Positions 36,785-39,328 of a stretch of DNA of 64,000 nt are shown piece by piece. The notes under the pieces are model-generated. The model saw only the letters and a list, made by a program, of their open reading frames with translations, was not told the DNA's origin and did not search any database. The position numbers were made by a program, and so were the translations under genes. Numbering within the stretch: the first letter of the stretch is position 1; each line of letters opens with the position of its first letter. Location: the NCBI GenBank assembly GCA_023129715.1, contig JAGMBO010000004.1, forward strand, positions 62,001 through 126,000, given 5' to 3'. The stretch comes from Candidatus Eiseniibacteriota bacterium. GTDB lineage: Bacteria; Eisenbacteria; RBG-16-71-46; CAIMUX01; WJJG01.

Positions 36785-39328
36785 TTGGCATCTCGTGCAG
36801 GGAATTCGCGCCCGGCCGCCTGGCTGCTTCTCGTGGCAACGGTTCTCCTCTGGCTTCCCGGTGACTCTGCCGAGCGCACCGGCGAGGCCAGGCGACCCAC
36901 GGCCGCCGCCGCCGCCGACCATGCCTGCCGCTTCTGGGGCCTCGTCACCACGGCGCCGCAAGACAGCCTGCTCGATGATCATCTGGTCAGCGGCACGAGC
37001 CCGTTGCGCGAGCTGGGCACCGCCAACCCCGACGGCTGGGGGCTCTGCTTCTACTCCCAGCTTCTACAGCCCCCAGCCGGGGGCTACCCGCTGACGATCC
37101 GCGGCGGGGTGCCGGCGGACCATGAGCATGACCCCCGCTTCGCCGAGGCGGTTGCACAGATGGTGGCACTGGTGCCCTCACGGGCGATCGCTCATCTGCG
37201 CAATGCCTCGACCGGCTCGACTGGAGTCCCCGATCCCCATCCCTTCACGCGTGATGGGCTAACCTTCGCCCACAACGGGACGATCGATACCACCGCGCTC
37301 CTCGGCCTGCTGACCGAGGGAACCCCCGACTATCTCGACCACCATCCCCCCGACTATTACGACCAGTACCTCGACAGCGAGCTCTATCTGCTCTACGTGC
37401 TCAAGCTGCGCGACCAGGGCGTGGAGGTGGGCGGTCCCGCGCCGAGTCATGCCTTGATCGATGCGCTGGCCGAGGCCGCGCGACGGGTGCACGAGTTGGA
37501 TGCGATCGTCACCGCGGCCAATTGCGTCGCCATCGCCGGGGATACGCTCTTCGCCATGCGCTTCGATCCCGACGACCGCAGCTTCTACGCGGTGTGCTAC
37601 CGCGCGTGCACCGATGGCTGGGAGGTCGCCTCGCAGGCGGTCGGCACCGATCTGAGCGATTGGGAAACCCTGCCGGCGAAGAGCGTCGCCTCATTCCTTC
37701 CCGGCGAGTCGCCCTTGATCCAGAGCGTCTTGCCCCCCGAGATGCCCTATCTCGTGATGACGGGCCATACGCTCGACGACGATCAAGCCGGCGGGAGCGA
37801 CGGCAACGCCGACGGCGGAGCCGATGCGGGCGAGCGGATCGAGCTGCTGGTGACCCTGCGAAATGACGGGCTCGTGGTTGCCTCCGGGGTCGCGGCGACG
37901 CTGGCGACCTCCGATACGCTCTGTCAGATCCTCGACGCGCATGAGACCTTCTCCGATCTCCAGCCGGAGAGCTCGGCGGTCTGCGCCGACGACTTCGATC
38001 TGTTGATCGACCCGGCCGCGCCGCCGGGACACACCATCCCACTCATGCTGACGATGACCTGCACCGGGCGCCCGAGTTGGGTCCATTACTTCTCCTTGGT
38101 GGTCGAGGCGCCACGTATCGAACTCGCAGCCCTCACCGTACTCGATGGGGCCGGGGGCAACGGCAATGGGCGTATCGATCCGGGCGAGACCGTGTTTCTC
38201 GATGCGACCCTCACCAATACAGGCGATGAAGAGGCCAGTGGCCTGCAGGCAATTCTGGCGATCCCCCATCCCGAGGTGACGATTCTTCAGGGCATGGCGG
38301 ATCTCGCCCTCCTGCCCGTCGGCGCGGCAGAGGCGCTCTCGCCGCACTTCGAGATCCACGTTGCGGAGGGTTGCGACGATCCCGATCTGCTCTTCGTCTC
38401 GTTCGCCGTCACCGGCGACTGGGGACAGGCGGTGACGCTCGAGGCCGAGCTCCCGATCGGGGGCTTCTTCGACGACATCGAAGAGGGCGCGGGCGAGTGG
38501 CTGACCTACATCGCGACACCGGACTTCGAGAACCAGTGGCATCGCACCGAAGACCGCAACTTCACCCCCGGCGGGAGCTGGTCGTGGGTGTTCAACGACT
38601 CGGTGACCGGCCTCTACGCCGACCTCGCCGATGGGGCGCTGGTGACCGACACGCTCGATCTCGCCGATCAGAACCACTTGCGCTTCCGGCATTGGATGGA
38701 TGCCGAGACGAGTGGCACTCATCCCGACCATTGTTATGACGGCGGCATCGTCGAGATGTCGGTCAACGGCAACGCCTGGGTCCAGATCGAGCCGGTCGGC
38801 GGCTACCCCTATCTGATCCGCGAGGGGAGCACTCCGGGGCCCTGGCCCGCCGAGACGCCGGTTTTCTCGGGCAGCATTGCCTGGGAGGAGGCGACCTTCG
38901 ACATCAGTGGCTTCAGCGGCACGGTGCGCTTCCGCCTCCGTTTCGGCTCCGATGGTGAGGTGAATGCCGAGGGCTGGTACATCGACGACATCGAGTTCTA
39001 TGGCTACAACGAGATCCCACAGGGTGGGCTGGATGGAGGCGCAGAGCTCCTCTTGCCCGCGGGGCCCCTCAGCCGGCCCAATCCCTTCTCCGGTTCGACC
39101 ACGATCGCCTACCGGCTCGCAGCTTCCCAGCACGTCTCTCTGCGCCTCTTCGATATCGGCGGCCGCTGTGTGCGCACCCTGTTCGAAGGTGTTCAACCCG
39201 CCGGCCTCCACGAACTCGCTTGGGACGGCCGGAACGGGGAGGGCCGGTGGCTGGGGACGGGCGTCTACTTCTGCCGTTTCGAGAGCGGCGCAGCGACTCA
39301 GACTCGCAAGCTGGTGCTAACCCATTGA
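36785..39328 (+). CDS. Secreted class II glutamine-amidotransferase-like protein with FlgD-like C-terminal domain
   Basis: The 847-residue product has a signal peptide (hydrophobic core 11-25), then a class II amidotransferase (Ntn-hydrolase) domain: CRFWGL with candidate nucleophile Cys48, NPDGWG at 81-86, AHLRNASTG from 136, HPF at 152-154 and FAHNG ending at 165. This resembles YafJ-type GATase proteins, which are normally cytoplasmic with Cys at position 2. Then come CARDB-like beta domains, a jelly-roll-like segment, and from about residue 758 a FlgD-Ig-like C-terminal domain (SRPNPFSGSTTIAYRL ... GVYFCRF), as used for surface sorting in FCB bacteria. The start is TTG at 36785; substrate unknown. 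Confidence 0.8.
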   Translation: MASRAGNSRPAAWLLLVATVLLWLPGDSAERTGEARRPTAAAAADHACRFWGLVTTAPQDSLLDDHLVSGTSPLRELGTANPDGWGLCFYSQLLQPPAGGYPLTIRGGVPADHEHDPRFAEAVAQMVALVPSRAIAHLRNASTGSTGVPDPHPFTRDGLTFAHNGTIDTTALLGLLTEGTPDYLDHHPPDYYDQYLDSELYLLYVLKLRDQGVEVGGPAPSHALIDALAEAARRVHELDAIVTAANCVAIAGDTLFAMRFDPDDRSFYAVCYRACTDGWEVASQAVGTDLSDWETLPAKSVASFLPGESPLIQSVLPPEMPYLVMTGHTLDDDQAGGSDGNADGGADAGERIELLVTLRNDGLVVASGVAATLATSDTLCQILDAHETFSDLQPESSAVCADDFDLLIDPAAPPGHTIPLMLTMTCTGRPSWVHYFSLVVEAPRIELAALTVLDGAGGNGNGRIDPGETVFLDATLTNTGDEEASGLQAILAIPHPEVTILQGMADLALLPVGAAEALSPHFEIHVAEGCDDPDLLFVSFAVTGDWGQAVTLEAELPIGGFFDDIEEGAGEWLTYIATPDFENQWHRTEDRNFTPGGSWSWVFNDSVTGLYADLADGALVTDTLDLADQNHLRFRHWMDAETSGTHPDHCYDGGIVEMSVNGNAWVQIEPVGGYPYLIREGSTPGPWPAETPVFSGSIAWEEATFDISGFSGTVRFRLRFGSDGEVNAEGWYIDDIEFYGYNEIPQGGLDGGAELLLPAGPLSRPNPFSGSTTIAYRLAASQHVSLRLFDIGGRCVRTLFEGVQPAGLHELAWDGRNGEGRWLGTGVYFCRFESGAATQTRKLVLTH

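Follow-up and report, generated by a model that had tools for sequence, protein, structure and literature searches.

The gene and its neighbourhood

The window, by which we mean the whole 64,000-nucleotide stretch of DNA analysed here, contains on its forward strand an open reading frame (36785-39328) that encodes a protein of 847 residues. Translation begins at a TTG codon, with the purine-rich sequence AGGGGG a short way upstream. The source genome (G000; 4.8 Mb, 96% complete) is of a Candidatus Eisenbacteria lineage, its nearest named records being Candidatus Eisenbacteria MAGs. Read by eye, the neighbouring genes are radC upstream and pilB downstream, with no peptidase gene adjoining. From the N- to the C-terminus the protein is laid out as a Sec signal, a pro-segment, a class II glutamine amidotransferase (GATase) domain with the candidate nucleophile Cys48, a beta-sandwich carrier of ∼440 residues, and a sorting domain of type A for the type IX secretion system (T9SS). 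The features are collected in Table 1.

Table 1. Features predicted in the exported GATase gene, in window coordinates
Feature	Position	Strand	Basis or remark
Sec signal region, residues 1-28 (cleavage site approximate)	36785..36868	+	Hydrophobic core to residue 22; candidate SPase I sites 26, 28, 35
Pro-segment, residues 29-47, ending Asp-His-Ala before Cys48	36869..36925	+	Variable in relatives except at the junction
Class II glutamine amidotransferase (Ntn) domain, residues 48-312	36926..37720	+	Pfam GATase_4; AlphaFold2; Foldseek to EgtC
Cys48, candidate N-terminal nucleophile	36926..36928	+	Alignment conservation (A1, A3, A4)
Arg139 (HxR motif), alpha-carboxylate ligand by homology to Arg73 of PurF/GlmS	37199..37201	+	Invariant in A3 and A4
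His163-Asn164-Gly165, oxyanion hole by homology	37271..37279	+	In A3, His and Gly without exception and Asn in at least 90%
Asp197-Ser-Glu, alpha-amino ligand by homology	37373..37381	+	In A3, Asp without exception and both Ser and Glu in at least 90%
Carrier, tandem beta-sandwiches and MAM/reelin-like jelly roll, residues 315-740	37727..39004	+	All-beta AlphaFold2 model; weak hits below cut-off
T9SS type A / FlgD-like C-terminal sorting domain, residues 765-847	39077..39325	+	TIGR04183 and FlgD_ig, both over cut-off

We regard the gene as real rather than as an artefact, because proteins with the whole architecture, at 42-50% identity, recur in four further genera of its family. A wrong start call, with the cysteine in truth at position 2, was ruled out: the codons GAC CAT GCC precede the TGC of Cys48, and there is no start codon among them.

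The GATase domain and its likely substrate

Two Pfam families match the protein above their cut-offs, GATase_4 (1.4e-7) and FlgD_ig (2.7e-8). The first-pass annotation of this DNA had recognised a class II GATase from Cys48 and the motifs NPDGWG, AHLRNASTG, HPF and HNG; all of these are present (NPDGWG at residues 81-86, AHLRNASTG with Arg139, HPF at 152-154, HNG at 163-165), and to them we add a DSE motif at 197-199. The Ntn-hydrolase fold that it proposed also agrees with an AlphaFold2 model of residues 40-320, made with 46 aligned sequences as input, which has the alpha-beta-beta-alpha arrangement at a pLDDT of 91.5 and a pTM of 0.91. Foldseek with this model returns EgtC as the best match (4zfk/4zfl, with glutamine or the natural substrate bound; TM 0.80-0.82 by target length), followed by GlmS and PurF, all three with probability 1.00. 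When a profile of the GATase alignment (A3) is compared with the PDB, the YafJ structure 1te5 is the top match by sequence (E 2.5e-49), and EgtC and PurF are also found. Thus, of the structural comparisons suggested at first pass, those with YafJ (by sequence) and PurF yielded matches, while penicillin acylases were absent from the Foldseek top list.

Conservation is concentrated at the active site. In the nine-row alignment A1 the invariant columns are Cys1, HxR, HPF, HNG and DSE; the Cys48 column is likewise invariant in A4, is conserved to at least 90% in A3, and is lost only where the second domain of a tandem copy has decayed. From PurF and GlmS we take, by homology, Cys1 as the nucleophile, HxR as the ligand of the alpha-carboxylate, HNG as the oxyanion hole and DSE as the ligand of the alpha-amino group. 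Since these glutamine-site residues are conserved, the predicted substrate has a free alpha-amino and a free alpha-carboxyl end. The conserved Arg, Asn-Gly and Asp-Ser-Glu, together with EgtC, GlmS and PurF as the closest folds, make a gamma-glutamyl amide more likely than an acyl amide, and the likely substrate is free glutamine or a gamma-glutamyl compound.

The earlier suggestion of an acylase of unknown substrate, with penicillin acylases as a comparison, is not supported by these observations. An enzyme of the penicillin acylase or bile salt hydrolase type, working as an acylase or amidase on non-glutamine amides, would at least share the manner of activation: secreted Ntn enzymes of that type use a processed N-terminal Cys or Ser, and in penicillin V acylase and bile salt hydrolase (both Ntn, Cys1) it is processing that frees the N-terminal Cys nucleophile. 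These enzymes are, however, of another subfamily with no sequence or Foldseek top-list match to our protein; no Pfam match to the penicillin acylase or choloylglycine hydrolase families was found up to E = 1, the nearest solved folds are all glutamine-dependent, and the glutamine ligands are conserved. We therefore consider such an activity extremely unlikely.

Among characterised proteins, EgtC (PDB 4zfj, 4zfk, 4zfl), the gamma-glutamyl hydrolase of ergothioneine biosynthesis, is alike in having a class II GATase fold that stands alone, with no acceptor domain attached, and in its active-site motifs, which are the same; it hydrolyses a gamma-glutamyl bond. In contrast to the window protein, EgtC is cytosolic with its Cys at position 2, and has no counterpart of the export signals, the pro-segment or the T9SS tail; against the EgtC equivalog model TIGR03442 the window protein scores 31.8 bits, far below the cut-off of 218.65. 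YafJ (1te5) is the best sequence relative in the PDB, and GATase_4, the family to which it belongs, is over cut-off, yet YafJ-type proteins start Met-Cys and lack signal, pro-segment and carrier, and the exported proteins form a clade of their own. No amide acceptor domain was recognised in the window protein, so that "amidotransferase" here names the fold and not the reaction.

Relatives and the probable release of Cys48

Relatives were sought in ∼85,000 species genomes by means of two conserved peptide patterns; for this purpose alignment A1 proved too divergent, while A2 served. The scan yielded 57 relatives, and most of those read were ordinary Met-Cys cytosolic proteins. The two patterns select narrowly, and the family is probably larger than this count. 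Relatives are known from metagenome-assembled genomes. The exported members, a rare group, occur in Eisenbacteria, Zixibacteria, a Bacteroidetes MAG, WOR-3 (a partly masked record, left outside the tree), Cloacimonadota and a Bathyarchaeota MAG, and a separate genome search added further exported lineages (G123, G148, G265). The Bacteroidetes and Cloacimonadota relatives also carry a T9SS tail over cut-off. A tree of 69 domains unites 25 that are exported in a single clade (support 100/97). The tree holds one other exported protein, L120 of G021, of separate origin; this protein (G021:C1:991764) is plain YafJ-like, with its own signal peptide ending ATG|C. Searches of the open literature for class II GATases that are exported, and for type IX secretion in connection with either GATases or Eisenbacteria, returned nothing relevant. 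Both the domain and the secretion route are known; it is their combination that is unusual, and within the exported proteins a motif ahead of the nucleophile, absent from the first-pass annotation, is conserved across phyla.

The N-terminus of the window protein has an Arg-containing n-region and a hydrophobic core at residues ∼11-22, and looks like a Sec-type signal, as the first-pass annotation had it. A lipoprotein reading, with cleavage by signal peptidase II, was dropped: a lipobox before the Cys (PROSITE-like pattern) is absent from the window protein and from the 16 relatives tested. The core ends 25 residues ahead of Cys48. The earlier proposal that exposing Cys48 takes a further cut is upheld by this distance; its open choice between trimming and self-processing can now be narrowed to likely self-cleavage, for the reasons that follow.

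We compared the sequence before the Cys in 21 cases, namely 19 exported relatives including the window protein and two internal second domains. The spacer between core and Cys varies from 11 to 81 residues among the exported relatives, and varies in sequence as well. The junction does not: His is found at −2 in 18 of the 21, and only Asn, Ala, Gln or Glu stands at −1. The entropy at −2 is 0.72 bits, whereas positions −4 to −12 have 2.7-3.5 bits. The pro-segment typically ends in [D/P]H[N/A]. In the AlphaFold2 model the pro-segment is of low confidence (∼64 over the first 10 modelled residues).

The simplest route to an N-terminal Cys48 would be direct cleavage of Ala47-Cys48 by signal peptidase I, with no further processing. 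Ala at −1 is compatible with this, and acceptable sites lie right before the Cys in two exported relatives (AGS|C in G005, ATG|C in G021). The Asp at −3 is unfavourable, though, the distance from the hydrophobic core is long, and the motif is kept by internal second domains, where a signal peptide is absent; we consider this route very unlikely for the window protein. The exceptions are instructive in another respect. In the Cloacimonadota relative (ISA|D-C) one residue still stands between the signal peptidase I site and the Cys, and the motif is absent from all three of the G005, G021 and Cloacimonadota proteins (Fisher p ∼0.01, with kinship ignored). As the G005 and Cloacimonadota proteins are nested inside the exported clade of the tree, they have probably lost the motif along with the pro-segment.

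In four Eisenbacteria proteins a single chain contains a pair of GATase domains. In two of the four, the second domain has both motif and Cys intact; in the other two, the Cys is replaced by Gly or Val. Signal peptidase cannot free an internal Cys, which counts for self-cleavage. Of the decayed copies, L072 (G002:C49) has lost Cys (to Gly), HNG (to HAG) and DSE (to DAE) from its second domain and retains the pre-Cys His, while L071 (G003:C390; 907 residues) keeps the Cys of domain 1 with HSG and DAE, and keeps HNG and DSE in domain 2 with Val for Cys. This decay, read from the sequences, shows that loss of catalysis is tolerated in parts of the family. It might be taken further, to suggest that the GATase domain has no catalytic role and serves a surface protein as a module for binding or as a scaffold: the Cys is gone from two second domains, L071 is damaged in both of its domains, and in the archaeal L075 HHG replaces HNG in a GATase domain set between DUF2341 and LamG. 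Against this, every catalytic and ligand residue is retained in the single-domain copies and in most first domains at only 25-50% identity, and we think a purely structural role unlikely. The Bathyarchaeota protein (L075:5250-8171) has, besides its inserted GATase domain, cohesin and dockerin domains.

The precedent for self-cleavage comes from the cytosol. GPRAT propeptides are removed autocatalytically, freeing the Cys (PMC7056826), and MEROPS family C44 includes the self-processing precursors of PurF and glutamate synthase (PMC5753285). These are class II GATases made with a propeptide whose removal exposes the Cys (PMC7056826, PMC5753285), and the window family resembles them in having sequence upstream of the nucleophile and a conserved junction; the C44 enzymes differ in being cytosolic or plastid and in possessing an acceptor domain, whereas the pro-segment of the window protein comes after a Sec signal. 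Given a junction conserved across phyla, a spacer that is not, and a motif missing where the Cys lies at or next to a signal peptidase site, self-cleavage is the best-supported route, and we infer that autocatalytic removal of the pro-segment, as in PurF but outside the cytoplasm, is the most likely one.

A possible, if rather improbable, alternative is that another secreted protease, for example a neighbouring C25 (gingipain-type) or papain-type peptidase, removes the pro-segment. C25 genes adjoin the GATase gene in several genomes, as a C1 peptidase gene does in G148, and conservation before the Cys is equally compatible with recognition by a processing protease. Gingipain-type enzymes, however, prefer Arg or Lys at P1, unlike the Asn, Ala, Gln or Glu found before the Cys. 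Furthermore, the same motif is present with or without a peptidase neighbour, and class II GATase precursors are known to process themselves (PMC7056826).

Probable type IX export and possible peptidase partners

The C-terminal tail, which had been read at first pass as suggesting surface export, is over cut-off for the T9SS type A sorting domain (NCBIfam TIGR04183; 28.9 bits for the protein and 34.0 bits in the genome search, cut-off 23). The search for T9SS genes that had been recommended was productive: translocon and sortase are both encoded in this genome, as SprA (492.5 bits when in-frame neighbours are included, cut-off 200; control genomes gave no match) and PorU (484.3 bits, cut-off 420), and ∼148 of its reading frames, the window protein among them, bear a type A tail over cut-off. 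The Sec-like signal, SprA, PorU and the T9SS tails in one genome lead us to place the protein, with high but not complete confidence, at the surface by way of the T9SS. In addition to these tails the genome holds 18 C25 peptidase matches, a large T9SS cargo set for this lineage.

The carrier between GATase and tail gives an all-beta AlphaFold2 model (mean pLDDT 70.8, pTM 0.43), and the Pfam families InhA-like_MAM and Reelin match it weakly, below cut-off. Foldseek on the carrier was set aside, with generic multi-Ig proteins as its sole matches and a model of such low pTM. More informative is a comparison within the genome: the last 531 residues of the window protein (37727-39319) align without gaps, at 56% identity, with a C25 gingipain-type peptidase (L162:1029-4811, G000:C108). 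In sequence, then, G000 appears to have used one carrier with exchanged catalytic domains, GATase in one protein and C25 peptidase in the other. The window protein is thus like T9SS type A cargo such as the gingipains in its Sec signal, sorting domain and carrier, and unlike them in its catalytic domain.

The two kinds of gene are also neighbours elsewhere. In G001, G003 and G004 a C25 gene with the same kind of tail lies directly upstream of the GATase gene on the same strand, at gaps of ∼28, 87 and 900 bp; the C25 copy of G003 is cut by the contig end and scores 19.3 bits, below cut-off. The GATase gene of G002 comes after a C25 gene and a FIST gene on the same strand, and in G004 there is a FIST gene ahead of the C25 gene. 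These FIST sensory-domain genes (L056:57-1361, L061:3951-5417) are thus found in two Eisenbacteria C25-GATase clusters, in differing order. Altogether, four of the seven single-domain copies have a C25 gene upstream on the same strand, directly or across one FIST gene; a crude estimate of the chance of this is ∼4e-6 at 3-6 C25 genes per Mb, under a distance and strand rule that was set post hoc. In the unrelated lineage G148 the tail of the exported GATase is Golvesin_C, and the adjoining gene encodes a papain-type peptidase (L164:7221-9941) that has Golvesin_C as well, together with a Lectin_like domain. We read the shared carriers and neighbourhoods of GATase and peptidase as pointing to joint extracellular use of proteins and peptides.

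Our explanation for these results, which we hold to be somewhat probable as a whole, is that the window gene encodes an exported amidohydrolase of class II GATase fold, made as a zymogen. Sec would export the precursor and signal peptidase would take off the signal, leaving a short pro-segment in place. The folded domain would then cut its own Ala47-Cys48 bond, like the cytosolic precursors of PurF and glutamate synthase, making Cys48 the N-terminal nucleophile, and the C-terminal sorting domain would direct the protein through the T9SS to the surface. There it would hydrolyse free glutamine or gamma-glutamyl compounds at the side-chain amide, probably serving extracellular protein and peptide use together with C25 peptidases on the same kind of carrier. 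Of this account, the identity of the domains, the conserved active site, the predicted fold, the T9SS genes, the conserved motif before the Cys and the pairing of genes in relatives come from the analysis itself; the autocatalytic cut, the exact substrate and the joint function with the peptidases are the inferred steps.

A bolder version, which we offer as speculation and think doubtful, is that the exported zymogen-type branch constitutes the amidohydrolase half of two-gene surface systems whose other half is a cysteine peptidase on the same kind of carrier. The substrate would then be that peptidase's product, such as gamma-glutamyl isopeptides or glutamine-rich breakdown products, and His-Asn/Ala-Cys would be a self-processing site that works also inside tandem polypeptides, in several bacterial phyla and one archaeon.

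Class II GATases are the textbook cytosolic modules of nitrogen transfer. In an exported, monophyletic branch that combines a conserved motif before the nucleophile with tandem copies and peptidase partners, this fold would be seen at work as an extracellular hydrolase. Such proteins offer a natural test of how enzymes with an N-terminal Cys are activated outside the cytoplasm, and they add a type of T9SS cargo in phyla beyond Bacteroidota.
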